Assembly: GCF_029227915.1 (NCBI RefSeq)
Contig: NC_079882.1
Location: forward strand, 21,395,001-21,459,000
Source of the DNA: Hydractinia symbiolongicarpus
Taxonomy: Eukaryota; Cnidaria; Hydrozoa; Anthoathecata; Hydractiniidae
Length of the DNA stretch: 64,000 nucleotides
Direction: 5' to 3'
This document shows, piece after piece, positions 1-50,180 of the stretch. Made by a program: the position numbers and the translations under genes. Numbering within the stretch: position 1 is the stretch's first letter; each line of letters opens with the position of its first letter. The notes beneath the pieces were generated by a model. That model saw only the letters and a list, made by a program, of their open reading frames with translations, did no database searches and had not been told where the DNA came from.

Positions 1-743
1 TGTTTATTAAATTTTCAGACATTAGTGGGATTCGAACCCACCCACTTTAAACTTTCTGGTTTTAAGTGGCAGTTTTTTTGAATACTTGTGTTTCCCATTG
101 TCAATCTGTATTTTGTAAGAAATATACATTTTGTTAAAAATGAGCAAAACTATGGTTTCTATAGAGTCAAATTAAACTGTATAATGAGTCGGAAAATGTC
201 TTATTTGATGTGGCTAACACTTTTCTAGAAGCATCTAATGTTATCAAACCCTCCTCGAGTTTTCATTTTTAGAATATTGGCTGTAAAAATTTTTACTTTA
301 TAACCTGAAAAATGGTCGATGTAAAGAATAAATATTGTAAATTAACTATTGAGCAAATGTGATTGTTCTTAAATTAACTTTTAAGTCCCTACCTGAATAA
401 ACCTCATAAAGGATTAGTTGACTGATGAACACAAAAAAATCAAATCTCAACTTCATTCCATTTATTGCTCAAATATATAAAACATCCCTTAGGAACAGTA
501 CTTATATCCAAGTCAACGTATCCACTATTTGTCTTAATAGTATTATGCAGTTTAATGATGTATTTATGTCATAATTGGAGTTAATAAAAAGGTGGATATA
601 ATACCATCAATTTATTTATTACAAAGAATTGAACTAATGAGGCAAACGTTTTGGAACACAATTAAGGGCAGAAATTTACTAGCGTGGAGGCCAGCCAGTT
701 GTGTATCTGGCAAATGTAAATTTATTTTTTAAATGTTTTTTAG
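1..743 (+). other. Intron upstream of the first visible ADCY9-like exon
   Basis: No coding exon was recognised here. The stretch is AT-rich and ends in a T-rich acceptor (ag at 742-743) in front of the first visible cyclase exon, so it is most simply the 3' part of an intron whose 5' exon lies outside the window. A tRNA B-box-like sequence occurs on the minus strand near 25-45 but has no A box. Confidence 0.6.
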
Positions 744-3502
744 GAAAACCTGGCAGAGTTCATTTCACAGCAAAAACATATGAATTTCTTCGAGGTCAAT
801 ATGAAGTTGAGGAAGGAGAAGGAATAACCCGTTTTGACGACGGAGCCTTTCTGAAATCGTATTTTATAACTGGTCGTAAGAATGGATTATCTGGATATAA
901 ACCATGGCAGAAGGAAGGCGACAATGGTAGTAAGCATTCAATCACAAGCTTAAATGATGTTGTCATGAAACACTCTGACAGCATTGCTAATGTACTAGTT
1001 GGTCTAAGCCCTGAAACAAAACAAAAGATCGCAGCAAAGGGTGATATAGATCACAAAGATGTACACTTTGCTCTTCAGACTAAAACAAATTCATTCACTG
1101 TTGACCAAGATGGCGGTGATAACATTGAGAAAGAATATTTATCACAATCATCACCAACCACGTCACCTACTGGAGGTAAACTACAAAAACAATTTGCAAA
1201 AACACCACTGCCTTATCCCCGATTAAGTGCCACCTTTAATTTCACATATGGTATGACTTTAAATGAAGCCTTAATGAGAGATGCAATGAGAGCTTCGAAT
1301 GATAATCAGTTGGTGAAACTTATGCACGAGAAAAAAATCCAGAGAGAGTACTTCTTCAACCCACCTTTGCATTGGTGTTCTCTTAATTTCATTGATGAGG
1401 ATGATCGAAAGAAAAACAAAACGGAGATCGAAATGGACGACTATGCTGAAAATCGCAAAAAAGATTTGCAAATATCTACAGAAGCAAAATACAGAGATGA
1501 GGGCTTTAAAGGTTTCAAGTTAAATCCAAAAGTAACTACGTTTGCATCTCCTAAAGTCCATTTCTTATTTGATGTCATCACATGTGCTTTCACTTTAATT
1601 GTTCTGACGATCTCATGTATTTGCTTCTTTTATGATGAATTTCCTGTTAGCTTAATGGCAGTGATACCAGTGTGTATTCTTGCTATGTTGTGTATGCTAA
1701 TATTAAAATGCATCAAATTCTCACCTTCAAATTTTCCAAAGAACATAAGTCAATGTACAGTACCAGTGGATAAAGAAAATAGCGAGACAGGTTCGTGATT
1801 TATTTTTCACGTATCTAAATGTCGGAAGTTTTTGCATTTAGGAATTATTAAATGTCGGAAGTTTTTGCATTTAGGAATTTTTAAGTTTCTAAGAAAAAAC
1901 AATATTTGTGACTTAAGAAATCAGTTAAAAAAATTGTTGTTGTTGGTATCAATGATAATTGGTATCATTATTAAATAGTTTCTAGTTTATTAAGGTAGGG
2001 TTGATAACCTTTTGAAAATCAGGGAAAAGGTATATCTGAGAAGGAAAGACAGTGAATGTTAGAGAAAAGTTTGGTTGTGGAAGTCTTTGGTGTTGTTGGC
2101 CGATTTGATCAATGTGAAATATTATTCATTTTGATAATCAATTCGCAATTATCGAACCAATCCAATTTATGAAGTAAAAAAGTATTTTTACTTCGCCATG
2201 TTTTATTGTAAGATTTAATAAAAATAATAGTTTATAATAGTTCTGTCACTTTTTATGCTATTTGATTCAGGAAGCACAGATGTTCCGAGCAGTACCGAAC
2301 TTCACGATGTACGAAACCATAATAGAAAAAGTTCTGATGATGCTGCGAATAGCTGTCAAACGTTCAAAAGAACTTTGCTATCCTCATGGGTGACTGCTCA
2401 TTTAACTGGTGGATTGATAATGTGCTTACCAATAATAGTCGCATTTGCTTCCTTTCATGATTGCTTTGACTCGAACTCGTTAGAAAACGATAAAGAATAT
2501 TTTACAATGTTGGTGTTTGTTGCTCTACTGCACTTCAGTAGTTTTACTCAGTTGTCCTACCTCATGAAGACAGGGATAGCCTACATTTGGTGTTTAGCGT
2601 TTATCCTTCTTCTATTTTTAAACGATTGCTTGCATGAGACGAAGTTAACTCGTAATATAGTAATGACAGTTATTCTACAAATAGTTTTGGTGACAGTATT
2701 AAATCGAATTCACGAGCAAGGTGTTCGTGCTAATTTCTATGGAGACAAGGAAGCTGCAGAACAGAAGAACGTCGCCATTGAGCAGAAACAAGTAGCTGAT
2801 TGGTTGATTCAAGATATGTTTCCACGGCACGTGTCAGAGCGGCTGAAGTATACGAAGAATTGTTCGAATAATTTTGATATAGTTGGTGTACTGTTTGCCA
2901 CCATTGTAAATTTCGGAGAGTTTTACGAAGAGAATTACGAAGGTGGAATTGAATGCATTCGAATATTGCACGAGCTTGTTGCCGATTTTGATAAGGAACT
3001 AGCAAAATATGAAGACATAGAAAAAATCAAAACTGTTTACGGAACAACATTCATGGCTGCGTCTGGCTTGAACTACAAGCCAATCTCAAGTAGCAATCAA
3101 ATTGCAAAGAAGACACATAAGTATTTGCATTTAAAAGCACTTGTCGATTTCGCTTTAGGCTTACAAGACACTCTTAATGAATTTAACCAAAATATGTTGG
3201 GTTTCCGCTATCGCTTGCGATGCGGGTTAAATGCAGGTCCTGTCACAGCAGGCGTAATTGGGACAATGAAACCTCAGTACGATATTTGGGGTGACACGGT
3301 TAATCTTGCGAGTAGAATGGATACGACTGGTGTTCAAGATAAAATACAAGTTGATGAGGAATGCGTCAAAAAATTAACAGATTTTTATACGTTCGAATAT
3401 CGTGGCACGATTCCTGTCAAAGGAAAGGGTGACGTGTCGACTTATCTTCTCGTCGATCGCAAGCCTAACCCACCGACCACAAGTGAGGAAGAGATCACCT
3501 GA
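744..3502 (+). CDS. ADCY9-like: Membrane adenylyl cyclase, ADCY9-like (3' part, two exons)
   Basis: Adenylyl cyclases make cAMP from ATP at the plasma membrane. Exons are 744-1790 and 2271-3502; splicing joins a G to GA, giving Gly in frame. Exon 1 begins at the end of the C1 catalytic domain (PGRVHFTAKTYEFL), then a long cytosolic linker and two membrane helices. The motifs YFFNPPLHWCSLNF and TFASPKVHFLFDV resemble ADCY9. Exon 2 adds about four more helices and the whole C2 domain, including VNFGEFYEENYEGG and YDIWGDTVNLASRM, whose Asp, Asn and Arg bind the nucleotide in this family. The C-terminal tail is short. The 5' exons with the first membrane block and most of C1 lie outside the window. 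The ADCY9 match is from memory of the vertebrate protein; the cyclase identity is secure. Confidence 0.9.
1817..1879. repeat. Two-copy 33-bp tandem repeat in the cyclase intron
   Basis: About 30 bases (1817-1846) are repeated identically at 1850-1879 with a three-base spacer. The repeat lies just after the donor site at 1791 and looks like a recent local duplication. No function is implied. Confidence 0.9.
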
Positions 3503-4919: not shown

Positions 4920-5005
4920 TTTTTCCACTTTGTTGCGACGGGAAAATATAATGGACGGGCGAACCCGTGGATTTTTCCACGGGCAACGACTAGCTCATCT
5001 TAATA
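4920..5005. repeat. Short dispersed foldback repeat
   Basis: A perfect 8-bp hairpin (4964-4971 with 4976-4983, loop TTTT) sits in a segment rich in the phrase GCGAACCCGTGG. A copy of the hairpin core recurs at 47022-47040 inside a POLR3A intron, and a diverged copy of the flanks lies near 56868-56945. This suggests a small, old, interspersed non-autonomous element. Confidence 0.45.
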
Positions 5006-7246
5006 ACCCAAAGTTGAGTGGCTGTGAGTTAGGACTACTAAACTATATGTTGGTATGTCGACCTTGCTGAAACACCAGGGTGGTGTACTTTGAAATCTAA
5101 GGTAATAGCAGCAGTGTGAACAAACCACAGTAGGTGTAAGGGTGTAAAAAATGTAAAAGTTTGCTTCCTACACTTGTCCACTTAACCTTATTCTGGACGG
5201 GATTTTGGGGAATTGAAGATTTTCCATTTATATGGTAGTCTAATGTATTTTCTTTTGTCAAATATATGTCCGATATATTTATATTCTGCATCGGAGCTGA
5301 AATCTGATCAATCGAATCTTCCTTGTTCAATTCCTTTGATACCTTGTTTCTTGTGATTCGAAATTACTTTTGGTCATTTTCGCGAAAGTTTATGCCTTTG
5401 GAAATTTTAAGTCGGTAAAACTCAAGGGCTTTTTCAGCATTAACAAATCCTAAAACGGGAAAATCTCAAATTTAGTGATTTATTTCTTCTTTAAGCATTA
5501 ATTACAATAACATTTGGTGTTTTCTTATTTTTGGGTGCTGCGAACATTTCTCTGATATCCCGATTTCTTAGAACAGTCTTGTGATTATGGTAAATACCAT
5601 ATGCGATTTAATAAATCATTTTTTGGAAATTTGACATTCGTGAAAAAATTTTCATGCGGAAACGAATCTTATTTTGAATTCGAGAAAGTTTTTTTGCAAA
5701 ATATGTCCAAAAAATCACCAAACGCGAAAGTTTCTGGCTGTAAAGTAATTCAAATTCACCTAAAAATCTCCTAAATTTTTGTGTGTTTTCCCTGCTAATC
5801 AAGATAATCTCCTAAAAAACAGCTAAAATCCTCAAGTATCCTTAAAAGTTAGCAAAACGAGTAGGAACCCTATTGAAGCTTGTATTTTGTTTATAGTTCC
5901 ATAATTGATCATCTAAAGTTAACGAACGACTTAATTAGTTGCCCTGATGATAAGCTTTCAACCTGAATGACCAATTTTTCACTGGAGTTTAATTTTCAAA
6001 TGATTCAATTAATGCATTTATTAGAATTATTTAAAAAAATCTTTTGAGGAGTGCGTTGGACCTAGGCTAGTGAACAGTGTTATCCAGGCGTTTTTTGGAA
6101 AACATTTGTGCGCACTAAATGCAATTAAAAACTGTGAAACTTTGTGCTTCAAATCATCCACAACATCACATTCAATTTCGAAATGTTGTGTCTATCTTTA
6201 CACTGAGATGTTATTCATATCTGTTGCATACTTTATTTAAACATATCAGGACTTGACAAAATAATTGCAAACTGCTTTTGTTTAGTCCCATATAGGTATT
6301 CGCGTGTAACCAGTTCCCAAAAAACATTTTTTTATACAAGCTAAAAGAAGTCCTATGAAATCAGTATAAATTAAAACAATGACCTTGTTATGTGATTGAG
6401 TCAAGATTTTTTCATTATAATCATAGTTTTTGAGTTTCTGAATTTAACCGTTTTCGGATATGAACCGTTTTTGACATAATATCAATATAAACATTTTAGT
6501 ACACATTAGTTTCTGTTCTGTTTTTTCTTCGACTTTGCGTTGATTTAAAACAAAACAAAATTGCAGATTGAAAAACTTAGTTAAGGTATTATGATAAAAT
6601 ACGGAATAAAGCATTGCCAAGACCCAAGTTTTAAAAGTGCGGTATTACATTTTTAAATATACCTTTCACATAACCTTTACCAATTTCCAAAATATTTTTT
6701 TTAATCGTAATCTGCAAATATCACGTGCTTTTTACAGCCTTGTTCTGAGGGATTGTTAGATTTTTTGACAAGCCTCATCAGGGCCGAGGTCAATATAGTT
6801 GTTTTTTTTACCAACGCTATAGCACTTCTACATGTGGTTAATAAAGATGGTTTTTATTACATCAATTTAGGCATTCTATAGGCTATGATTTAGGTAACCT
6901 ATGAGTCGAAAGTTAGTGGTTTGCCACAAATGTATAAGAGCATTCCATGCAGTTAGAAACTTTTTGATATAAGTCAAGATATGTTGGGGAGATGGTCAAA
7001 CCAACTCAACTTTTCGTGTTCTTGTAGTTTGACTCCTATTTTATCTATAAAGCCTGTTTCTCCAACAACAAAAAACGAAAAAAACAAAACACGTTCAGCA
7101 CTTGTTCGCACCCAAATTCGTGATCTTTGGGAATTAAACTTTTAAAATGTTTTTATTTACTCTTTAAAGTAAATAACATCGAACAAAAATACAGTGTCTG
7201 ATACGACACAGTAAGTGCCATGCTTCTGCTGGCATACTTAAAGAAA

Positions 7247-7294
7247 TGCAAGGATTAAATTCTGCAAGGACTAAATTCTGCAAGGACTAAAATT
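7247..7294. repeat. 16-bp tandem repeat, three copies
   Basis: Three consecutive 16-base units of the form TGCAAGGACTAAATTC; the first differs at one base and the last at its end. It is a simple local duplication in intergenic DNA. Confidence 0.85.
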
Positions 7295-7848
7295 GGTTTT
7301 ATTATACTATTATTATATTACAGATGGTTATGGTTTTGCAAATGGGAGATATCTTAAACTTAAATATATTCTTAAATATAAGAAATTTTTTTCTCTTCCG
7401 TGCTGTTCAGTTAGCTTGAAAATTTTCCACGAAATTTTAATTTCAAAATAAAGATGCTTTGATGTCTCGGATTTTCAGATGTCATTCATGCTGAGCAGAG
7501 CGAATTTCTTTTAATGCGCATCCGTAAAAATGAAAGTCGTAAACAATAGAAGTCATTAGGTCTCGTCAACTATACACGATATTACTATTACTTCATTTTA
7601 CAAAATGATAGGATGGAGAAAGGTTTGAAGTTTTGATCGATTCTATTGCTGCTGTTACATATCTATGTGCAAACTAGTGGTTACGAAAACAAGTAAGTAA
7701 TAGGAAGTTTTAAAGTCATTGGGGATTCCATTTCCAGTGTAAGTTACTACCTCTCCAGCATGTGCTTGTGCTATGTAAGGTGATAAGTAAACAAAACAAC
7801 ACATATTACTTTAACAAGTAAAGTTAAACATCGGAGGAAAAACAAATA

Positions 7849-7854
7849 TTTATT
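7849..7854 (-). terminator. Poly(A) signal of the DsbA/FrnE-like gene
   Basis: AATAAA on the minus strand lies about 18 bases after the 3' edge of the SECIS-like hairpin and about 730 bases after the TAA stop at 8583. The spacing would put the hairpin at the very end of the 3' UTR. Confidence 0.55.
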
Positions 7855-7871
7855 TCATTTTTGAGAATAAA

Positions 7872-7930
7872 GCTACTGCAGTACATCAAAATATCAACTA
7901 TTCAATTTCATGATATTCATCATTGGTAGC
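7872..7930 (-). promoter_or_regulatory. Candidate SECIS element in the 3' UTR
   Basis: A SECIS hairpin directs selenocysteine insertion at in-frame UGA codons and lies in the 3' UTR of eukaryotic selenoprotein mRNAs. Read on the minus strand: a short lower helix GCTAC (7930-7926) with GTAGC (7876-7872); a 5' quartet strand ATGA (7923-7920); an eight-pair upper helix GAATATCA (7918-7911) with TGATATTT (7896-7889); a 14-base apical loop starting TGAAA; and a 3' quartet strand TGAT (7888-7885). Eleven bases separate ATGA from the loop adenines, the spacing expected of real SECIS elements. The lower helix is short and the upper helix is A/U-rich, so this needs folding or homology support. It was found by looking downstream of a frame with a suspicious UGA, which raises its prior. 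Confidence 0.6.
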
Positions 7931-8582
7931 AATCCTCCACCCATTACCAAATAATCACACAATAATAAATAATTTTATAAATAATAAGATTTGTTATCTA
8001 AAACTAAAAAAACAAATTCGTCACGAGTAACGAAACTTATCAAATTCTTTTAGGATTCAAGTTGTCTTTATTTTAAAGTGAACTTTGCATTTTTCATAGC
8101 TATAACTATTAATCACTATAATGGCAGAAGCTAATAGGAAATTCTTTTATGATTGTAATATATTAACCATTGAAAGTATAATAAACTTTATGTTCAGGCA
8201 AAATAAAACTTACTGAGCAAAACACTAAATTGGTTTAATAAGAAAACATGACTATTATCCTGAACATCTGGAAATTTAAAGTGTAAAATTGCACATAAAT
8301 CTGCTTCAGATTTCACCATTATTTAACTTTACAATTTTGAAAATCATAAAACTATGGTTTCTCAATGTAATGTAATAAGAAATCCAAACACAATTATAAC
8401 CTGGAAAAATTTAAAAAAATATCTTAAACTAAATTTTATAATAAAAAAACTGTGATTTAAATTAAAAATTGAAATAAAAATTTTCTATCTCATCTAAATA
8501 GCGTAAAAAGAGTGTGTATGTTTTATATTACATATATATGTGCTAATTGCATCAATTGAATCATATCATTATTTGTAAAATT

Positions 8583-10195
8583 TTAATGCTTTGTTTTATT
8601 GGCTTTGTGATATTCTTTTAATAATTTGTTAAATGTATCAACAAAACCAGATTTGTTTTGCCCACCAGAAAAAGTTACAGGTCGTTTGTCGTTGTACCCA
8701 TCAATATAAATAACAAAGTGTGGCACTCCTAAAATTCCTTTCTTCTTTGTTTTTTGAATTTCACTGTGTAATCGTTTAACACTTGTTGGTGATGTAAAAA
8801 ATTCCAAAGCTTTCACCTTATCTACGCCACAACGTTCAGCTAACATTTGCAAAACTTTATCGGAATGCAAATTGACAGCCTCTTCAAAATACTGTTGACA
8901 CAGTAAATTGCGAACTTCTGATTCCTTTTCTGGACCATAATTTTCAAAAACAAACTGTAACAGCAGATGACTTTTGATAGAGTTTACAACGTAGCGGTCA
9001 GGATCAAATTTTATGCCCTATGAATATCGAATAATATAGTTAAAAAAGACAATTATATGGTTCACTAATAAAATACTTATGAAGGGAAAATTTAGAGCAT
9101 TTTTACAAAAATATCTGTTAATTACTTAACTCATTAACAAAATAAAACGCAATAAAACAGAATATTAACCCTTATTAGATGACACTAATTCCTGTATAAA
9201 CAAAAAATTAGCAAAAAAACAAACACATAGGAAGACTTGATTACATAAAACTGTGTTTTGTGGGAAGAAATTTAATAATCAATTTTAATTAAGAAGAAAA
9301 AAGTTCAAAGACCTACCACACTTTTAGCAGCTTTAGCAAGGGGTCCTTGACCTTTTAATTCTTGCTTAGCCACTTTCTCTCCAAATTTGTTGGCTAGATA
9401 GACCTGTAACGGAATCCCTTCTGGTAACATATGTGCATCCAACAAAAATGGTTTCCAGGACACAACAACTGAAGCCTTATTCTCAACTGCATTGATAGCT
9501 GCTTCAAGTTGGCGTCTACCTATATAACACCTGAAAGGCAAAAGTATAATTTCTATGAATATTATAAGTATTATATATATATAATCTATATATTATTTTA
9601 CATGGCTAGGTTCACAAATATCGAGGGATATACTGTGTCTATATTTCCAGGAGGGGGGCATGGATTAGATTTAGAGTCCTAGAATAACTTACAGGTGACA
9701 GTTCTCACAAGGACTATATAGACAACAGCTGTTGTCTATTTCTGTGTGATTACATAGTCATGCTATGGACACACACAAAAAGAAAACAGGCTAGCTAGGT
9801 GGCATTCACAAGCTTCCTATCCCTTCATTTATTCCTCACTTGAATTACATACATTTAAAAATAAAGAGAAGCTTGGCCATCAACTATATGTTAGACAGTT
9901 AATTTGTAATTTAGATAAGAAAATCTAGATAATGGTTTCAGTGTTAAAGGGCCTTTAATTTACTTAATTTTTCATTAACCATTATCTACCCTACTATGAT
10001 GCGCAAGTAAATGAGTAGAAATGCATGATAACAACCACAATGGAAACAATAAGCCATTCAACTACCTAGTATTTTTGCTTTTAATTCTTGAGATTAAATA
10101 ACAAAAACTTATTATTCTTACCAAGGTCATATGATATCCGCGGTTACTTCTACTTTTATCACTACTTTATCATTTGAATTATCTGAAAAAGACAT
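8583..10195 (-). CDS. DsbA/FrnE-like thioredoxin-fold protein, predicted selenoprotein (U-P-W-C)
   Basis: The product resembles the FrnE branch of the DsbA superfamily, thiol-disulfide oxidoreductases with a CxxC active site at the start of a thioredoxin fold split by a helical insert. Exons are 10195-10122, 9530-9317 and 9017-8583, joined by GTAAG and GTAGGT donors and CAG/TAG acceptors. The joined frame has 240 codons plus TAA, with one in-frame TGA at codon 23: TADII-TGA-PWCYIGRR. Family members read DxVCPWCYIGKRRLE, so TGA replaces exactly the first active-site Cys. The frame is coding on both sides of it, with a natural ATG in CAAAAATG context. Later hallmarks are SWKPFLL, GIKFDPDR and the cis-proline region GILGVPHFVI. 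No signal peptide is evident, so a cytosolic location is inferred. A SECIS-like hairpin lies 3' at 7872-7930. The alternatives are a sequencing error or a nonsense allele (TGT/TGC to TGA). Confidence 0.85.
9601..9690 (-). repeat. Partial SINE-like dispersed repeat in intron 1 of the DsbA/FrnE-like gene
   Basis: These bases match 28003-28090 with scattered differences; shared phrases include CTATNNTTTCCAGGAGG and GAGTCCTAGAATA. At the other locus this segment is the 3' part of a tRNA-headed SINE on the minus strand, so this copy looks 5'-truncated and in the same orientation. Confidence 0.6.
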
Positions 10196-12881
10196 TTTTG
10201 CACCAGAAGAAGTAAAATTACTTTGTACTACTGTATTACTTTACTACTACTGGCTACTCCACGGTCGAAATGTTTTGATTACGATGTTTGTTGATTTATT
10301 ACATTGCGCTTCATCAGTAAACCGTGCTTCTTTAAACTTCTCCCTCGCGGATGCTCTATACCAGTTCAAGATGGCGGATGAAAGGTAAACATGTCGCAAA
10401 ACGAAACTGAAACATACCTAAAGGACGTATTTAAATCCTAAAAGTTTTCGGTTTTTTATTTTTAAATCTTAGATTTTAAGTCGCAAAAATGTAGTGTGAG
10501 ATAAATTACAAATGCTCAATCACTTAAATGTCAAAAACATTTATTTTGATGTGAGGCTTTTTGTGCTAAATTTTACAAAAAATAGATGCCATAATTGATT
10601 GAGGGTGGCAAAAAATTTGAGAAACATTATGGTTTTTAATATCATGTTTTGCCATTGGCAGGATATGTATTCCAAAAATATTTAACACAAACGCCAAACT
10701 ATCTCGATACTCCGTAGTGAGAAAAGGAGAAAGAATAGCCATAAAGGCGATGATTGAAAATTTCAAGCAGCTCTTTTAAGACGTTCGCATTTCAATGTGA
10801 TGAAGTAACAAGACGCGAGTGTTACTTCTTTTTATCATGACTGACATAATTGTTGTGAAGATAAGTAATGGTAAGTATTCGCCTGTCATATAGATAATAA
10901 GTCTCCAATTCGTCTGTATAGTAGAACAATAAAGAAATAAGAAGTCAACAGCAAGGCTTGTTGTTTTGGGGGAATTGGAACATGTGATAATGCTTTCTAT
11001 AATATTAGATCGAAATAAATGAAAAGTTTAAAATTACTTGAATCAAGAAGGTTTAAAAAGAAAACCTCCTTTATGAAAATTGTCTAGAATAAGCACATTT
11101 TGATGAATATCGTTTTGTTTCGACATTTTTCAAATTAATTGACAACAGACATATGCTTTTTTAATGCATCTTATTTATTTATTTCTGTAACCAACATTTA
11201 AAGTTAAATTTTGAGAATTTTATCCCTATTCGCGAAAATCTGTCTGCGCGAAAAAATTCCCGGAAAGATCAATTCGCGAAAATAAATCTAGAAATGACTT
11301 TTTCGCTAAAATTAACTTCGTGAAACTGGAAAAAGTAGTTTTTCTTGAGAAATATTCTTTTTTTAGAGTTGTTAAAAATGATAATGATCACCCTCTGTGA
11401 ACAAGTTCAATTAAAGCCTACCTTATCTCAATAAATAGGCCTGATATAAATTAAAATTGCGAAAAAATGCTAAGTTCATAAAATTAACTTTTCACAATTC
11501 TTTGTATTTATTGACCCAAACTCGTCCCCAGCGCCTTTTGTCTCTTTTTTTTGTTCAGTAAAAAAAAAGAGACAAAAGGCGCTGGGGACGAGCTTGTTTA
11601 TTGACCCTCTCAAAAATAAGTCAAAAGTTCAAAATTAATCAACTAATTGTTGAAGTACCCACTTACAAAAATTCTCTAAAAATTGTCATTTTAAAACTAA
11701 TTCACCAAAAGATAGCCAATACACGTAAAAGGAACTTTTTAGCCGTCAAGTTACTTAGTTGCTTGCTTTGCACCCTTTTACCTAGACACTGACAACGTGA
11801 ACTTTACTTCAACCCTACCAAACGCGTTTGTTTCAAAACAGCCAAAAACACTTTCCAAAAGTCACTATAGTGCTGTTTACTGATAGAGTTGCTTCCGACA
11901 TAATTTTTCCCACAGTTCAACTAGGAAGGATGCTAAGTGAGACAAAGTGTTCAGGGGACGGATGTAAGGCCTAAAGGTTGTTAAGCAAGTTTTTAGGCAA
12001 TGGCCAATTTTCGACTTAGTCCCTGAAAAAGTGCATGTTTAGCCTTCTTTTACTACGAAGGGTACATGTATAGCAGGAATGTACGTCAGATCTTTGTTCG
12101 CGGATTTACAAACAACAACAATATCAATTAAAACAGGTTACAGTCCGGTTACCTTTGCAGACATATCATGACCAAAAAAATTGCTTAAAAATCATTCAGA
12201 TATTCATGAAATTATATTCTTGTAGTAATTTTAAACCAGTAAAAAATATTTGCTTATAAAACAATATATACATAACAAATTATCAGTTTTAATAACATTC
12301 AAAATCTTATATCCTAACAAATTCGTGAGGCGTTTACATGATTCCCAGACGATCCTGATTGCCATTAACCACACTGTGTTTACATGAAACTTTTATATTG
12401 GAAACGAGCAAACACTTGTAGTTAGTTTCTGCGCATGTGCAACGGGTTCCTACACACGCGCAAGTTATGTTGCGTCAATCCTGTTTACATAAACACTGTA
12501 TTGGATAAATCTACCTGGTATGAATTTTAAAAGATTTCGAGAGAATTTAGGTTTTTAGGTCAAGCTAGAAGAAAATAATAAAACGCATAACAATCATTAC
12601 AAATTTTAGGAGAAAATGGAAAGTTCTAATAACCAAACCTTTTCCTAACATACTAGTTAATCTTTTATAAAAATGTGAAAGATTGATGTCAGGATGAAAA
12701 ATTTTAGAGAGTTTAAAAGGAATCTTGGGTCTCAATTTTAGGGTAGTTAAGAGGTTCTAGGTGCAGCCACCTTAGAGACCCTTGTAAACGCCGGCTAAGA
12801 TTACGTTATATTTTACTTTTAAATATTTTTTAAGAAATTTTGTTGCAGTTCCAACAGGGAACGCTATGTTACCCCACAGCG
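10196..12881. other. Intergenic region between the DsbA/FrnE-like and SLC26 genes
   Basis: The first few hundred bases should contain the 5' UTR and promoter of the DsbA/FrnE-like gene, which reads leftward. No TATA box or conserved reading frame was recognised. A perfect long hairpin lies at 11521-11592. Short open frames here match nothing I know. Confidence 0.55.
11521..11592. repeat. Perfect foldback hairpin, 32-bp arms
   Basis: The arm from 11521 (CTCGTCCCCAGCGCC...) is perfectly complementary to the arm ending at 11592, with a loop of about seven bases around GTTCAGT. Such a structure is typical of a foldback or miniature transposon, or of a snap-back event at a repeat end. Confidence 0.85.
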
Positions 12882-13039: not shown

Positions 13040-16000
13040 TTACACAACTTCTTTCTCAGACGTTGATTGGTTGAAACTTTCAGCATCGTCTTCTTTGGTT
13101 GCCTATGAAAAAAAAACACGCTTAATAATAACCTGTGCTATAAGATATATAAAGTGAAAAAAGCTGGTTTGAAATGAGTTGAAAAAGATTTTTTAGGCGC
13201 AACACCACCTTTGTTTCAATACCTGCGCAGAAGAGCAACTGCTGTCGTCCCTAACGATCAGATTATATGACGCGTCATTGTTTACATTCTTCAACAGAGG
13301 TTCACAAATCCCTTTTAACTGAAAACAAATTGTAAACGTAAAGTAGTTCTCTGCGAGACATAAAGAAGATAAAAGAGGGATTGGATCAACGAAATAATGA
13401 CTTACGTGTTCTTTTGAAAGAGAAAACTGCACTGCATCATGGGTAGACACAAAGATATGTTGGGAACCATGTGTACTTGTAAAACCACTGGCCTCAAGTG
13501 AGATTAGCAGTTTCGCTTAAATAAAATCAATTAATTGTTTAATGATCATCATTGAATTGTTTTTTACTTTACGTACACAAAAACGCGATATAAATATAAC
13601 ACATTAAATACTAGCTTTTTTGTCTTCTAAAATTAAAAAAAGAGGAATTTTAAAGAGAAAAACACGTTTAAAAGATCATCATTATGCTCATTTGGCTTAA
13701 AAAAGTCTCATTCTAAAAAAAGCATTTCATAGATATATATGAAAAATGCTATGCTGCTGCTTTAACCTGTGATTTTGAATTGGTAAACAATCCTCGTTTC
13801 CTTACAACATATTTGACTAGACAAGCTTAGCAATTAAGACATTATTTACCTGGACAATTTGCTAAATAAACATTTACGTCAACTTTTTTAAATTCGCTAC
13901 AAACCTAAAAATACATAACAAAAACAAATTAAGCCATCCCAGTATTAAGAAGTGAAAAAGAGTCCTTGGGACGAGATTGCAAAAAATGTCAATTTTTATT
14001 AGAAATGATGCATGCCAGCAACGAAAACACAACTTACTGTTGATATCATAGCCACGCCCATCGTGTCGGCGTAACATATTTGTGAACATTCAAGTATAAT
14101 AGTATGCGTGGGACAAAAAAGTCGGCACGATTCGTCTTGATAAACTACTTTCGTAGAAAGATTATTTGGAGAATCGAACGAGCCACTTCTTTGGATAAAA
14201 GGTACGTTACGCTTCTCAGTACACTAAAAATGAAATGGATAAAAATGACGGTCATTCACTTAAAAAATGACAGTAATTCAGTTAAAAATGACCATCATTC
14301 GGTTAAAAACGACCATCATTCAAGTAGAAACGACCATCATTTAGTTAAAAATGAATATCATTCAGTTAAAAACTACCATCATTCAGTTAAAAACTACCAT
14401 CATTCAGTTAAAAAAACCATCATCTAGTAGAAAGTATGAGAGAGAATGGAAAGAGTAAAAATTTACCTGTGAAAAGCTTCTCTGTTTTAAGGGTGGGGCG
14501 TAGGAATTATTCTCCATAAAGAACTTATCACTGGAGCTATCGGGATCACTCCTCGCTGTGGGTGCTTGAAAACAACTTGGTACTGCCATTTGGATGCAAG
14601 TACTTGGATTAACGGTAGACTCATACAGTTTTTCTTGAAAGAATTCCACATTTGCAAAGAACAGAGGTGCGTGAAATTGGAAAATTTTAACACCCGGGGT
14701 TTCATATAACTAAAAAAATGTGAAGGGGCTATCAATCAATCAATGAATAAATGTTTAGTTCGTAGTGCAGCTAATTAAGGAAAGACATTATTGTGCTAGA
14801 AAATATTACGCCAGCAAAGATTGCGCAAGAAAAGCTTGCAAACCTTTCTTCCCTTAAATTAGCTAACAAATTGTTACTCGATGTATAATAGAGATTGTTG
14901 ACATAATGAATATTCAGCCAACATAAACGACTGTTTTAAAGAACGCAAAAAAAGCTCGTATTATTAACAAAAACCACGAAATATACCTACAGAGTTTTGA
15001 AATTTATCCATATAAATTTCTGTTCCTTTCACTTGCCCCATTAATGTTGTTGATGGTCTGTAGATTAATAAACATACTCATTATGTCTCGTTAAGTAAAT
15101 GGAAGTAATTCGGATTTAAAAATATCGATAGAGTGGATGTACCTGGAGTTTCTCACAACAGACACCAGCAGATTGGCAAACAACCCAGTCGCAAGACCGA
15201 CATCAACTCCAAATATAATAACTGCTATAAAACTCACAATCCAAATACCCTGGAGAAAGACTAGATGTAAGTATGTATTCGTATATATTTAAATTGTCAG
15301 TAAATCATACAGCAGTGAAAAGACGATTGATAAGACTTCTTACCATGTCAATCACAGAAGCCTTCCATAATACCTTCAACCTTGAAAATTGCTTGAATAG
15401 TCCTTTTAAAGCAACCAAAACAATAGCAGCCAGAATTGCCTATGGAAATCAATTTTATTGCGATTTCAAGAATAAGGAAAGAAAAGATGAGTTTTGAGGT
15501 TTGTCGCTCCTAATGAAACATGTATTTTAAAAACAAACAATAGAAGTAAGCAAAAATTCTTACCCTGGGCAAATACACAAACAGTGGAGCTAGCACAGTT
15601 AGTGTAAGGACAATCAGAGCACTTGCAAAAATTCCAGCAAGCTAAAATAATTATTTGTAAAATATTTGTATTTGTAAAATAGCCATAAGAAAATAACCAT
15701 AAAGTTTATAAAATAACAGAACTAATCGCAAAACACATATATAGCAGTCGGTAAGTAGATTAACGTACGCGAGAATTAAATATTTAGGAAAAGTCTATTC
15801 GCGAAAACTAATGCTAGCGAAATATATCTTTTTTGATTCGTGAAATTTTTTGCCCGCCACATATCGAGGTTAACATCGTTCCACATGTCACACGTTAAAT
15901 AAAAAAATGAGAAATTATAAATAGACTCTACCTGTGTGCTACCCAAATTTTCTTGTATGAGTGAGCGAGACAATGATGCTGACGCAACGAAGCATGAAAG

Positions 16001-19000
16001 AAAACTTCCAACCATATTTACTGCACCGTATGCGTATAACTCCTAAAATGTAAAGGTACACATCAAAATTTTTCAAGTTTTTAAATTTAAACAATAACCT
16101 TTGGCTTAACCAGTAAAGGTACATGTACACTGACCTGATTTGCATCAACTTTATAGTTGTTTTTCTTCGCAAAGGATTTGGCTACAGACACACTGATAGC
16201 ATATGAAACAACCGCGATGCTGACGCAATCAATGATCATGTCTTGCATGTAGGAAAACTTTGGTGAAGAAAGAGGTGGCAGTCTACAGAAAAAGAATTCA
16301 TGTTTCTACTAACGGGATTTGCTAGTTGACAACTTAAAATGTGATTCTTACCCTTTTGGAACATTTTCTAAAATAGGGATTGAATATGTTTCTTTGAATT
16401 TGAATCCGTACGACAATCCAGTCCCTAAAATGACCTACAAAGAATTTAACAAGATGAAAATTAACCTTAAACGAAAGAAAACAAATAAGCAAACAAACAA
16501 CAAAAAATAAACAAAAACTTACTACTATAAGTTCGGCTGGTATTGGAAACTTTATTTTCTCCTTATACTTTTGCGTAAAATATTTCACAACGAATAAAAT
16601 TATTGTAGCTACTACGCCAATGGTCAATGCACCAATGTTTGTCTCCTTGATGTGACTGAAGATGTATCCATACAACTAAAAAAAAAGAGATATATATTGA
16701 TGGAAAAAAAAGTTGTAGTAGTAGCAGAAAAGTAGATTTAAAGATTTAGGTATTCAATAAAAAATTTAATACTAATGCAATATAATGAATCAATAACCCA
16801 TGGAAGGGTAATAAAAAAACGAAGGTGACTAAGTTGTTTGCTCCTAGTCAGTAGGAATGCTGGATTAGTGACGTCACACAACTGGAAACTTGAGAGATTA
16901 AAGGCACGGAACACGAATACGGAATTTCTACATGCTTTTAAACAATACCTTGAACAAGCTAAAGTAACCACTTGTTTTATCCCGTGGTATTCTTATACCA
17001 ACGAAGTGTTTCACTTGACTGCTAAAAACGTGAAAAGCGGCTCCTGTCGTGAATCCGCTGATGAGAGGGTCGGAGAGAAAGATTGTGATAAAACCGACAC
17101 GAAAAAATCCAAGGACGAACTAAATCAGAAAAAAATAATCAAGATTAACATATACTTGAAAAAGAAACTCGCTTCATAAAGGAACTTGAAGATAATAAAA
17201 TCAACACCTGGATCGCACCAACAAGAAAAGAGACGGTGACAGCGTATTCGATTCGACTTTCTACCAGCAGTTGATCATACTGCGAGTCTGTTGTCCCATT
17301 TGAACGTGATGGAAAGTTAACATTCATATTTTTTTGCACGACCTCGCCAACCATTAGCGATATAATGGCGAATGTTCCTAAAAATTATTCATTTGAAATT
17401 TAGCGCTAAATTCTGCTGCAATCAAATTTAAATAGACACGAATTCGAGGCCTAACAGTGTGCAAAACTAAACTGTATTTCATAAAATTATCGGATTGTTC
17501 CAATTCAGAAGTTGCATATAGATCGGTTTCTTTTTACAAAATGAAAAAAATCTTACCAATGCTAAGGTGTTTTGAAGAGCCCATTAAAAAGTAAACGAGC
17601 ACAGGGATAAGCGATGCATACAATCCATAGATTGGCGGAAGAGTTGTTAACATACCGTACGCCATACCTGTTAAAAAGAGGGCGAAGATAAAGATCGAAA
17701 ATTTAATAAAAGGGAAGGTTAACACCATGTATCAAATATTAATTGTTAATGCAACAAAAAAATCGTTTAAAAAAACGATTAAGTGCTTAATAGCAAATCC
17801 AACCTAATGGCTGATCGCGCGAAGAATGTTTGTGCAACGGGGGGTAATTACCTTGAGGTATCTGCATTATACCCAGCGTTATCCCCGCAGATATGTCCCG
17901 CAGGAGATAATGTCTTTGATACTTTGGCAGCCATGATATAACAGGAAAGAAGGAGAGAAAACGTTGCAAAATATCTGCACATGTGCAGTTTTGTTTGATC
18001 CTTGTTGATAACTGTTTGATAAGCGATTCATCCTCAATGTTTTGTCCGTATAAACGCGATACTTCTTCCTCCGTGTAAACTGGCCTTTCGATGCGCACAT
18101 GTCTTTTGCCAGAGCGACGAACTGATTGTCGAATTAAGTCAAGTTTCATTGCCGGTTCATCTTTTGTAATCTAAAATTAAAAAAGCTAAAAATCAAAAAA
18201 TTGCATATATACAGAAATAAATTTATAGGTAATAGTCTAGGTCTCGTGACACGATTTAAAAAAAAAATCGATATAAAGTCCTGTTTACACTATTAAAGTA
18301 CATTAGTTTTTTACTCAGCACAAATTTTCTGTAACAAGCCGTTTTTAGATATATCGCAAGTATTCGTGCCTATAAATTTTTAGTGCAGTTCGCTGACTTT
18401 TTTTCGCGAATCAATCGTTTTTTACATGAAATCGTTATTTTCACAAGTGCATACTCTATGTAAATTGTTCCTATTAAACTATTCCTTTGGGAGTCGGTAA
18501 TTTGAACAGTTTTTTTTTGCGAATATTGCACTGTGGGGAATGAATTATAAGGGAGATAAAAAGAATTCAATGCTGAAGATAAATGGCAACGTGTTATTCG
18601 AGAGATGCGAATGGCAACGTAATAGTGTCTAAAGATACATGGCAATACAAGAAGATAAACATTGATGCATTATTAGGGAGATAAGTAGTATCTAATGCAT
18701 TATTCAAGATAATGTATGACATAGCCCTTTTTAGGGAGATGCATAGTAATATATTACTGAGGAGATAATTAGCAATGTATTGATAAACAGATTCTTTTAA
18801 ATCAAAGTGCATGGTCTCGAAATTCAATCCCCTTTAACCGTTAGTCAGCCTGACTGTTTCTCTAAAGTGAAGATCCTACACTCAACGCTGCCTGAAGTCA
18901 AGCAAAATGCGCACCAATGACAGACTTGTGATGATCTCAAACAAAACATGATTTTCATACGTTAAGACTTAAGACCAAGAATATGTTGAGCTGATTTTTG

Positions 19001-32025: not shown

Positions 32026-34540
32026 CTAATTCATGATAAAGTCCTGAAGATATGCTGGTTGACGGTGCTCTCTCGTAGAGCGACGAATCGAAGGTAGTGG
32101 TGACGTTGGCAAAGGTGAATCAATGCGAGGACTTTTATCGGACTGGAGTGCGGTAGAAGTGCCCTCCTCAAATACGGGTTTCCGGGTTGCAACATGTTCA
32201 GCTGGTGGAGGCGGAGATTTTGACAATCGAGGCTGGTCTGCAGAGTGGCTGCTGTCATCTATATCGCGATCCGACGGTTTGGCTGGTATCATTGGCGAGG
32301 TAGTCGGTGATATGGTGCGCCAAGCATCTGCAAGCCGCTCAAATGGTATGTTAGGCTGGATGGGTGTAAATTTCCGAAGAAACTGACGATTGCGTAATGT
32401 CACTCTCCGAGATCCATCAATGCGTACAACGTACTGATCGTGTTGATGAACTTCAATCACCGATCCGGTTCTATCCCACCTACGCGGGTATGGGCCAGTT
32501 TGGTTTTGAACTCGAACATTGTCTCCAACACAGAGGGGTGTCAATCGCTTTGAGTATCGAGATAACCTCTCAGCGATGGCCATGTGCCGGCGTCTAAGGG
32601 CCTTCTCACGATCCTCAAGCATGCTCACCCATGTCGGATGGGGAAGGTATTTACCAGGAAGAATCGGGATAAAGTCCTTGATGGGGCGTCCGAATAAACA
32701 AATGGCAGGTGACAGTTTTGTGGTTTGGTTGGGTGTGTTGCGATATTGCAGCATGGCACGTTGGAATGAGTCTGTATCGAGGTTGCCACTGGGGCCGACA
32801 TTATCCATTAGCATCCGTTTAACAGTCTTAACACCAACTTCAGCTCTGCAGTTGCTATGTGGGTACGCAACCGATGAAACACGATGGTGGACACCCCAGT
32901 TTCGAAGGAAGGTTGATGTAGATGATGCACATAACTCTGGCCCCCCATCCGATGCGAATTCGTCGGGTATGCCATACGTGACAAAGGTGCGGCGTAGACA
33001 ATCAATCAGGGCACTGGCCCCATTCCTGGCTTCTTCCACGATAGGCAAATTCGAATACCTATCAACACAAACAAGATAATTGTGACCGGCATAGTGGAAG
33101 AAGTCACCACATAGTTGTTGAAATGGATAATCAGGATAATTGAGAGGGGTCGGTGGAGCTGATTGTTGTGATGGTGCGATGTGGTCGCAGCTTTTACACC
33201 CTTGTCGTAGTTTGATGATGTCAGAAGTAAGGCCAGGCCAGAAGACGGAAGATTCTGCTCTCAAGGTCATGGATGTGACTCCGTGATGTGCAGCATGCAG
33301 GCTTGATAAAATATTGGAGCGTAGGCATTTCGGAACAATAACCCTGTCCTTGTAGAGAGCGACACCGTCAACTGTTGAGAGATGGTCACGATACTGGTGG
33401 TAAATCTGAAGATGAGGTGGTAAGTCTTCCCGATTTCCGGTAATGCCAGATTCAATTAGATCTACCAGTATCCTCATTTCCTCGTCCGCGGTGGTTGCTG
33501 AACGGACGTCCTCCCAAGTTGTAGATTTCAATGAAGACAATGCAGTGGATGCAGCAATACAGGATATATCATCAGGCAGTACTAACTTTTCAGGAGTCGG
33601 ATCACCTGCCGGGTGGCGTGACAGTGCGTCTGGAACTCGATTTTTCAATCCTGAGATGTGTTGCATGGAGAATCGATAACGTAGTGTACGTTCCTTCAAA
33701 TTCCGCAATCGATTGTTAGGGATATTGTCGAGAGACCGGTTGGTGAACAGTCCAAGCAAGGGCTTGTGGTCCACAGCGATGATCAGGTCCTGGCATCCTA
33801 AAACAAAATGTCTACATTTATCCAAGGCGTACGCTACAGCTAACGCTTCACCTTCAATTGGCGAGTAACGTGATTCAGCTGGGTGGGTAAATCGGCTACC
33901 CACGAGAACAACTTTCCACCCCGTATGACAACAAAACAGGGTTTCGGCCATGCAGGAACAATGTTTCTGGTACAGCCAAAAGCCCACCCCGGTTTTAGAC
34001 CAGTCGGTCGCAATACAAGTGCGTCTGGATCCATCAAAAATTGTTACTCCCTCTTCTATTTCATCGACGATTTTCGCCTTAGACGTAGCAAAGAGTTCAT
34101 CTAATCGATCGTCCCAATAAAATTCGGATTGTGGCTTTAGTAGGTCACGGAAGGGTGCCATGTTGTCGGCCATGCTGAACGTATATGACACCTGGTTGAC
34201 TAAGCCAAACCAAGATCGCACATCTGTTATGTTCTTGGGAACCGGAAAATCGGTGATAGCGCGTAGGGTGGTGGATGATGGACGGACATTGGTCGGGGTG
34301 ATCTCAAAACCAGCAAATTCAACAGTATCGTGGGCAAATTTGAATTTAGATGGGTTCTGGATAATGCCGTTTCGCCCACATGTATCTAACCAACGACAGG
34401 TATGGAAAAAACATTCACCAATGTCACTTGCCCATAATAAAGAGTCATCAGTCACCTTAATTTTGTTCGGAAAATCGGATACTATAGCATCGAATCGCCT
34501 TGAATATCCGTCGCCTGAGGTGATGTAACCTTGTACATCG
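32026..34540 (-). pseudogene. Gypsy RT (C-terminal)-RNase H-integrase frame
   Basis: In the second frame, polymerase sequence is readable from about 34540 (QGYITSGDGYSRRFDAI), and the frame stays open to the stop at 32026. The catalytic box reads KVTDDSLLWA, so the usual aromatic residue of YxDD is Val here; related elements remembered from cnidarians also lack the Tyr. RNase H and a complete integrase core follow, then a basic, Ser/Pro-rich tail. There is no chromodomain. Confidence 0.8.
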
Positions 34541-36450
34541 CGTGATGTACGTTGTTAAATGGCGATCCTCTTCGCGCAGTGGGACGCTATGATAACCGTT
34601 CCAGGCATCCGATACTGTTTTCTTTGTGTGCTGAGGAACTGTACGCACCTGATGAAACGGGGATGGTGTGTGATGTGTTTCCCGTGTAGCATGTTTGTTG
34701 AGTGCTTGAAAATCAACACAACGTCTAGGTTTTCCATTCTTCTTGGGGCACACGACCATTCTGTGACACCAGGTCACAGGTTCACCAATGGGTACAGGCT
34801 CAATAACTCCGAGGTTGACGTCCCGGTCCAAATCGGCTTTGACCTGCTCCTGCCAGTGGATTGGAACCGGTATGGGAGAATGATGTGCAGTCGGTTCAGC
34901 ATCCTGGTCGATCATCAGTCTAACAGGTGGTCCAGACATCAACGGTAACGGTTGGTGCTCACATGTGTTGAAAGTGCTGTCTTTGTAATAATTTAGAATC
35001 CACTGTTCAAACTTTTCACGATTCTGTTCTGTGGGTGGAAATGGCAACTCCTTGGGAATGGGAGGTGGTACCGTTCGTTTTGGACAGGCACATTCGTTGT
35101 GTTGTAGTGGACCAGTGATAGTATTGGCACCGATAGATGGAAACTCTGCAGGTATAATGCCAAGGTCAACACATGCACTCCGACTAAGGTAGAACTTATC
35201 TGAATCATTGGTGACATAGGTAAACTGCTTGGTCTCCTGAAGAGAACTGTCCTGACTAATGCCAGAGATGCGGAGAATGATAGCACCTAGTATCTTGATG
35301 GCTTGTCCATTAGCTGCATCCATTTTCATGCGGACTGGAATAAGATCTTCTATATTAAGGTGAAAACGTTGCACCCATTTGAAACCGATGAGGCAACTCT
35401 GACATCCAGTGTCTGCCATTGCTGGGATGGATATGGGCGATTCTCTAGTTCCGTGAGGGATTGTAAACCCCAATTCCTCGTAATCAGTATCAGCGATTCG
35501 GACAGCTAGGTTAAGGAATGGCTGCGATTGAGATGGAGTTTTCTTCCACATGTTCTTACGCTTGTCGTGACAGTGATGGTCTGCTGGGTTGGTTCTACTC
35601 TGCTTGAGATTCATAGAACAGAGTGAGTTGAAGGTGTTAACGGATTCTTCAACAAGAGCAGTCTGATCAGCTTTCTTATCCTTGTTTTTCTTGTCCTTGT
35701 TGCGACACACATGATCGAAATGATGTAGGCGCTGACAGTGTCCACATGAGTGACTAAATGCGGGGCAGGAAGATTTTCTGGACTGTAATGAATTACCACT
35801 ATGACAATGTGTTCCGCAATATCCGCATTTCTGTGACGAAGTGTCTCGTTTGGAGTCGACATCATTTTTGGGCTTGGTAAACGAGTCTCGCTTTTCCTTT
35901 CGGTATTGACTGTGTATGACACTAGCCTGATGACTGTCAAGTAAACGCGTGGCAGATCGCTTACCAGCTTCTTTTGTTTCGACGAATTTCATAACCTGCT
36001 CCAGGGGCATCTCCTGGTTGGTGTGGCCGAGGAGTTCCAGCTGGATATCTGGATCTGCAATGCCTCGACTAAGTACGTCTCGCAGAATATGCTCTGTATA
36101 GTCAACGTCATAGTTACACTCAGGGCACGATACGGTGTATTTGCAAACGCCAGCCTGTCCTTTTAATCTCGCACCAAAGGATCGTATCGATTCTTCAGGT
36201 TCTTGACACATGTTGTTGAGGGCTACGCGAGCGACCATTACGTTTTCTTCTCGAACAGCGAGGGATTTCATTGACGAGAGGATAACATCTTCACTTTTAT
36301 CTGCCAGCATACCAGCAGTTGATCGTGTCAAATCCCTGCGTAACTGTTCATCACAGCATTCTAATAACTGCAAGACAGCGTCCCTGCCTGTGATCTTTGT
36401 AGTTGTTTTGTATTCCCTCCATCGGGTAAGAAAGTATGTCCAGTCTTCTG
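34457..36450 (-). pseudogene. Gypsy gag-protease-RT (N-terminal) frame
   Basis: An open frame starts within gag at the truncation point; DWTYFLTRWREY is near 36438, and the first Met is at about 36373. It passes through the Cys/His segment and the protease, and into the RT fingers (VIEPVPIGEPVTWCHRMVV, CVDFQALNKH). After LREEDRHLTTYITR the frame diverges from the family: the expected segment of about ten residues before QGY is missing and the frame changes. It is therefore inactive as it stands. Confidence 0.8.
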
Positions 36451-36463
36451 ATCATCCGGCTAA

Positions 36464-37870
36464 TTGGTTGATCAAGTAATGAAAGTTATTGAAAGGGTGA
36501 TTGATAAGTTACTTAGAGAAAGAATTGATATAGATAAGATGCAATTTGGTTTTGTTCCAGGGCGTTGCACTACAGATGCAATATTTTTACTCAGACAGCT
36601 TCAGGAAAAGTATTTAGGAAAGAGAAAGAATCTCTATTTTGCCTTTGTAGATTTAGAGAAAGCTTTTGATAGAGTGCCACGTAAAGTTATTTGGTGGGCT
36701 ATGAGAAAATTAGGTGTGGATGAGTGGCTAGTTACGATGGTTCAGTCTATGTACAGCAATGCTAGAAGTCGTGTCAGGATTAACGATTCACTTAGTGATG
36801 AATTTAGTGTAAATGTTGGTGTACATCAGGGTTCTGTACTTAGTCCTTTGTTGTTTATTCTAGTCTTAGAAGCGCTGTCGATGGAGTTCAGAACAGGTTG
36901 TCCATGGGAGTTATTGTATGCAGATGATTTGGTTCTCATAGCAGAGTCGATGGAAGAATTAGTTGAAAAGTTTGAGAAGTGGAAGAAAGGACTAGAAGAG
37001 AAAGGGCTGAAGGTAAACACAGCAAAGTCTAAAGTCATGATAAGTAGCATTACAGCTAAGTGTGACCTTGTAGTTGGAAAGTGGCCTTGTGGAGTTTGCA
37101 GGAAAGGGGTTGGTAGTAACTCAATTTTTTGTCAGATTTGCAAGCATTGGGTACATAAGAAGTGCAGTAGTATTAGTGGAAGGTTAAGAGCTGGCATACA
37201 GTTTGTATGCAAGCATTGCAAAGGTGAGATTATAGAGAATGAAGTATTTCCAGCTTTAATGATGTACAACAGTGGCTCGTTAGAGATAGTTAAGAACTTC
37301 TGTTACTTAGGTGATATGTTGGGCAGTGAAGGGGGTGTTGGAAGAAGTGTTACTTGCAGGATAGGTTCTGCTTGGAAAAAGTTTAGAGAGTTACTTCCTT
37401 TATTGCCTAGCAGAGTCCTGTCAATTGAGGTAAAAGGTAGGTTGTATGAGGCCTGTGTAAGAAGTGTTATGTTGTACGGTAGTGAGACATGGGCAGTGAA
37501 GCAGGAAGATCTTGATCGTTTAGAAAGGAATGATATGAGAATGGTTAGGTGGATGTGTAATGCCAGTCTGAGAGACAGAAAGAGTTCAGAAGAGCTAAGA
37601 AGCAGGCTAAGTCTCCGTAGAATTAAAGATGTTATCCAGATAAGAAGATTGAATTGGCTGGGGCACTTGGAAAGAATGGAGGAGGATAATTGAGTAAGAA
37701 AGTGTAGAGACTTGATAGTTCCTGGGGCAAAGCCCAGAGGCAGACCAAGAAAGACTTGGCAGGAGGTTATAAGGACAGACTTGATAGAGAGGAAGTTGAG
37801 TTTAGATCTAACACAGTCTAAATCAGATTGGAAGAGCCCCGTCCAACCCATGCTAGCATGGAAAACGGAC
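36464..37870 (+). pseudogene. LINE reverse transcriptase with C4HC3 (PHD-like) finger, one nonsense codon
   Basis: RT motifs are present in order: FVDLEKAFDRVPR (motif A), QGSVLSPLLFILVLEAL (B) and LLYADDLVLIAES (C). About 45 residues after the polymerase palm comes CGVC...FCQIC-KHWVHKKC...VCKHC, which fits the PHD spacing C-x2-C-x10-C-x2-C-x4-H-x2-C-x14-C-x2-C. Then follow the LINE C-terminal motifs LYGSETWAVKQEDL and WLGHLERM. The frame meets TGA at 37691-37693 where relatives probably have Trp, and continues readable (VRKCRDLIVPGAKPRGRPRK) to about 37870. It lacks the endonuclease and the start of the RT, so it cannot move on its own. Confidence 0.85.

Positions 37871-38357: not shown

Positions 38358-50180
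<11,823 letters not shown>

Follow-up and report, generated by a model that had tools for sequence, protein, structure and literature searches.

A probable selenocysteine-containing DsbA/FrnE-type oxidoreductase gene in the hydrozoan Hydractinia symbiolongicarpus

Introduction

Animal forms of DsbA that carry selenocysteine (Sec) at the active site were reported in 2010 from Ciona intestinalis, C. savignyi and Branchiostoma floridae (PMC2874816). That report places the Sec-TGA in exon 1, notes that annotations of C. intestinalis and amphioxus had wrongly treated it as untranslated, and gives SECIS elements for the Ciona and Branchiostoma genes (PMC2874816). A study of 2012 described Sec-DsbA as occurring widely among marine invertebrates and listed two genes for Nematostella vectensis and one each for Lottia gigantea, Capitella teleta and amphioxus, alongside cysteine (Cys) forms in the sponge Amphimedon and in Trichoplax (PMC3473315). 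FrnE (DsbA) is also listed among the families annotated in SelenoDB 2.0 (PMC3965025). Among the matches listed in the open-access literature, of which coverage was partial, no paper on a hydrozoan Sec-DsbA was found.

Here we analyse a 64,000-nucleotide stretch of Hydractinia symbiolongicarpus DNA (hereafter the window), in which a first-pass annotation, made from the sequence alone, had proposed a new selenoprotein of the DsbA/FrnE type and had known of none in the animal lists. Neither the novelty nor the absence from animals can be upheld: Sec-DsbA was in print for Ciona and amphioxus in 2010 (PMC2874816) and for two Nematostella genes, Lottia and Capitella in 2012 (PMC3473315), and the family is named as FrnE (DsbA) in SelenoDB 2.0 (PMC3965025). 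The gene itself, its in-frame TGA and a candidate SECIS element downstream of it are considered below, together with the other explanations that might be offered for the stop codon.

Gene model and protein family

The gene lies on the reverse strand and consists of three exons. Exon 1 (10195-10122, reverse strand) runs from the start ATG to the first splice donor, exon 2 (9530-9317, reverse strand) starts inside the W codon of UPWC, and exon 3 (9017-8583, reverse strand) terminates with TAA. Joined, they amount to 723 nt, or 240 codons plus TAA, and both introns are of the GT-AG type (TTG/GTAAGA and TTTCAG/GTG for the first, GTG/GTAGGT and CATAG/GGC for the second, the slash marking the splice site). 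Translation of 10122-10195 on the reverse strand gives MSFSDNSNDKVVIKVEVTADII, followed by the stop and by P. The stop is an in-frame TGA at codon 23 (10129-10127, reverse strand), the proposed selenocysteine codon, which occupies the place of the first Cys of the CPWC active site; the surrounding sequence reads VEVTADII-TGA-PWCYIGRRQLEAA.

Re-translation and exon joining bore out the exon coordinates and codon counts of the first-pass annotation, and with them its central observation of an in-frame TGA at the catalytic Cys. This codon is the sole internal stop of the coding sequence and aligns with the first Cys of CPWCYIG. The frame on either side is coding, as had also been proposed: the other 239 codons are open, and when the protein is aligned with three relatives, the residues flanking the TGA prove conserved on both sides.

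With Cys entered at the TGA, the protein matches the Pfam family DSBA (PF01323) at E = 8.9e-23 and 81.5 bits, the gathering cut-off being 25.6; no NCBIfam model matches it. The crystal-structure chains 5cp1 and 5cnw of FrnE, which we take to be a bacterial protein, are matched with E = 2.9e-18, and in this alignment the TGA codon (as Cys) again falls on the first Cys of CPWCYIG. The CxxC active site is thus written TGA-P-W-C in this gene, with Cys-26 present, and the motif is complete only if the TGA stands for Sec or Cys.

Homologues and the residue at the TGA column

Three protein searches yielded 68 proteins in total, 67 of which were aligned with the window protein. The TGA column is covered by 58 of the 67 aligned homologues and is occupied by Cys in 56 of these, by Trp in one (P0002) and by Tyr in another (P0021), the last showing that residues other than Cys do occur at this column. 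The in-frame UGA thus stands where 56 of 58 homologues covering the column have Cys, as is expected of a eukaryotic selenoprotein. The remaining nine proteins are gapped at the column and all are short (133-182 residues); they are probably unspliced or truncated calls. Among relatives with a species name the nearest are two Cys forms: Cys is found at the TGA column both in Hydra vulgaris LOC100211789 (P0003), which is 65% identical to the window protein, and in the DSBA-like protein of Clytia hemisphaerica (P0009; 54% identical).

Two close relatives deserve separate mention. P0002, a cluster of three member sequences from the sources jgi and lgn, is 66% identical over 95% of the query and reads IEVTADIIWPWCYIG at the site, with Trp at the TGA column. 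Judged from the protein sequence only, this Trp may be the product of a TGA translated with a table in which UGA is Trp; a real TGG could be the alternative. P0001 is 97% identical and runs through the exon 2-3 junction without a break; it therefore seems to derive from a spliced transcript of a close relative. Its called frame begins at the first Met downstream of the TGA, a start that could reflect a stop at the TGA codon and that a retained intron 1 could explain too.

A candidate SECIS element in the 3' region

The best candidate for a SECIS element lies at 7930-7872 on the reverse strand and comprises a helix I (GCUAC/GUAGC), a 5' AUGAU, a helix II of 8 bp, a 14-nt apical loop with AAA, and a 3' UGAU. 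Helix II stands directly between both quartets, the AAA is found 2 nt into the apical loop, and the core (7923-7885) is situated 660 nt past the stop codon. A possible polyadenylation signal, AATAAA, follows just 3' of the candidate (7849-7854, reverse strand), and a second AATAAA, at 8072, lies 5' of it.

A first, looser scan for SECIS geometry covered both strands of the window and returned 30 candidates, two of which fall within 6500-8582; the second of these two, at 7958-7907, lacks helix I and was not considered further. Strict criteria, which call for contiguous helices of at least 7 and at least 5 bp and were set after the candidate had already been seen, gave four SECIS-like sites on both strands of the window, 7930-7872 among them. 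Such sites are commoner in the real window than in its shuffles, where they number 0.65 per 64-kb strand (60 shuffles). At least one strict site occurred in 0.97% of 3000 shuffled 3' regions of 982 nt, the share being 0.6% for a helix II of 8 bp and 2.3% for one of 6 bp. The density of the three other sites, counted over 128 kb (both strands), predicts a site in about 2% of stretches as long as this 3' region. The chance of an equally good SECIS-like hairpin in the 3' region is accordingly about 1-2%.

Rfam searches of 5000-10400 and of 7855-7950, with E values as high as 10 allowed, gave no match to a SECIS family. The matches that they did return at E <= 10 (3 and 15; snoRNA, miRNA and one bacterial sRNA) lie far under the gathering scores and were taken as chance. 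The candidate is no stabler than its shuffles (z = -0.18), 86 of 200 of which fold as well. A competing fold is better than the SECIS fold by 1.9 kcal/mol and the exact SECIS fold accounts for 0.3% of the ensemble, the mean pair probability being 0.30 in helix II and 0.82 in helix I. We consider 7930-7872 a probable, as yet unproven, candidate for the SECIS of this gene.

Other features of the window

On the forward strand, the frame 2231-3499 contains a Guanylate_cyc catalytic domain (3.6e-47) and ends in TGA; an upstream frame (683-1795, forward strand) has no Pfam match and may belong with it to one adenylate cyclase-like gene. Exons of a large RNA polymerase subunit, with Rpb1 domains 1, 2 and 5, are found at 41244-41939 and 45707-45919 (forward strand) and, from their motifs, are presumably part of the largest subunit of Pol III. 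Open frames at 14407-18170 (reverse strand) resemble an anion transporter, which we take to be of the SLC26 type; the STAS domain at 14407-14709 reaches 21.4 bits, just under the cut-off of 22.6, and the segment 17790-18170 (reverse strand) has no Pfam match. Long retrotransposon-like frames occur at 32029-34554 (reverse strand; RNase H and integrase), 61786-63999 (reverse strand; reverse transcriptase) and 36464-37690 (forward strand; reverse transcriptase, recognized by eye). At the gathering threshold, Rfam finds in the whole window two tRNA matches only, at 47986-48057 and 49800-49871 (both reverse strand); they score 61.4 bits each, the peptide that overlaps them is identical, and they are perhaps copies of a tRNA-derived repeat.

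Reading of the in-frame UGA

The gene is, in our judgement, very probably a working animal gene for a Sec-containing thiol oxidoreductase of the DsbA/FrnE type, its UGA being recoded by means of a SECIS element, because the position of the TGA is exact, the frame is conserved on both sides, relatives have Cys (once Trp) at this place, and a fitting SECIS-like element is present. Ribosomes would decode the UGA of codon 23 as selenocysteine under the direction of a SECIS in the 3' UTR, for which 7930-7872 is the best candidate, and the product would have a Sec-Pro-Trp-Cys active site in a DsbA-type thioredoxin fold. By analogy with DsbA and from what is described for the family, Sec, as the exposed first residue, would attack the substrate and Cys-26 would be the resolving residue (PMC2874816); the catalytic role and the redox direction are what we infer from this analogy. 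The selenoprotein proposed in the first-pass annotation thus stands as far as the TGA position, the conserved frame and the Cys of 56 of 58 homologues carry it, and the SECIS-like element fits without amounting to proof. Under the vertebrate rule, a stop codon upstream of exon junctions exposes a messenger to nonsense-mediated decay. The TGA of codon 23 is located upstream of both exon junctions, and selenium-dependent decay of the DsbA/FrnE mRNA is therefore plausible if the vertebrate rule is carried over.

If the TGA were an error of sequencing or assembly, the true codon would be TGT or TGC and the product a normal DsbA/FrnE of the Cys form, like those of Hydra and Clytia. The TGA is indeed one base away from a Cys codon, and both of these relatives have Cys. 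However, if codon 23 were TGT, 120 single-base nonsense changes, in 95 codons, would be possible in the coding sequence, and the TGA observed is only one of the 120. Moreover, P0002 has Trp at the equivalent codon and P0001 starts past it, a SECIS-like element is present at the expected location, and Sec-DsbA is reported for a cnidarian (PMC3473315). We regard an error as very improbable.

It is highly improbable that a nonsense mutation in codon 23 has made the gene a recent pseudogene or a null allele. One stop suffices to break a gene, but a random nonsense change would hit this codon about once in 120, the other 239 codons are open and the splice sites intact, and P0001, at 97% identity, seems to be transcribed and spliced.

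A functional mRNA might also do without the modelled exon 1, through another first exon or by initiating at the Met inside exon 2, where P0001 starts; the TGA would then stay untranslated. Yet VEVTADII, encoded by exon 1 just 5' of the TGA, is a good match to both P0002 and Hydra, and a start at the internal Met removes the entire active site, which makes such a transcript an extremely unlikely explanation. A reassigned nuclear code in which UGA is read as an ordinary amino acid, at which the Trp of P0002 taken alone could hint, is next to negligible, because a TGA closes the adenylate cyclase frame 2231-3499 (taken as the gene end) 16 residues past the catalytic domain, which extends to residue 407 of 423, and because TGT encodes each of the three remaining Cys residues of the DsbA protein; the relatives that bear a species name are animals, whose nuclear code is the standard one.

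Sec and Cys forms among close relatives

We compared the window protein with its relatives in a tree of 16 rows, namely the window protein and 15 hand-picked homologues of the 67. The window protein is joined to P0001 with support of 99/99, and the tree does not settle the branching among the window protein, Hydra, P0005 and P0002. The two changes counted for a single group of the window protein and P0002 carry no information, since that group excluded P0001, which may have either state. On an evenly balanced judgement, close cnidarian relatives, probably hydrozoans, may possess this FrnE-type enzyme both in a Sec form, represented by the window gene and probably by P0002, and in the Cys forms of Hydra, Clytia and P0004, Sec and Cys having been exchanged at least once and perhaps repeatedly. 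If this is true, such cnidarians constitute a natural panel for studying what makes a disulfide-handling active site retain Sec or lose it.

Comparison with known systems

By the descriptions in print, the window gene probably belongs to the published Sec-DsbA family of animals (PMC2874816; PMC3473315). What may be new is the gene of Hydractinia symbiolongicarpus and the occurrence of a Sec form close to the Cys forms of Hydra and Clytia. It adds one more case in which ordinary gene calling would truncate an enzyme at its active-site UGA, and its probable Sec form can be set against closely related Cys forms.

FrnE of PDB 5cnw/5cp1 has the family and the CPWCYIG motif in common with the window protein and is a Cys form, whereas the window gene has TGA. 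Hydra P0003 and Clytia P0009 are about equal in length to the window protein and share the CPWC site; in contrast to the TGA, or Sec, of the window gene, their first active-site position is Cys. The family name and assignment of FrnE (DsbA) in SelenoDB 2.0 fit the window protein by their description (PMC3965025). With the Sec-DsbA of Nematostella, Lottia and Capitella, a set that includes a cnidarian, the window gene shares the family and the Sec/Cys exchange, and from the family and the position described it is probably orthologous to them (PMC3473315). As reported for Ciona and Branchiostoma, the upstream active-site Cys is replaced by Sec and the Sec-TGA lies in the first exon, a likeness that the window gene would share across phyla; these animals belong to another phylum, and the SECIS elements of Ciona are reported as form II, whereas the window candidate, as drawn, is without a mini-helix (PMC2874816).
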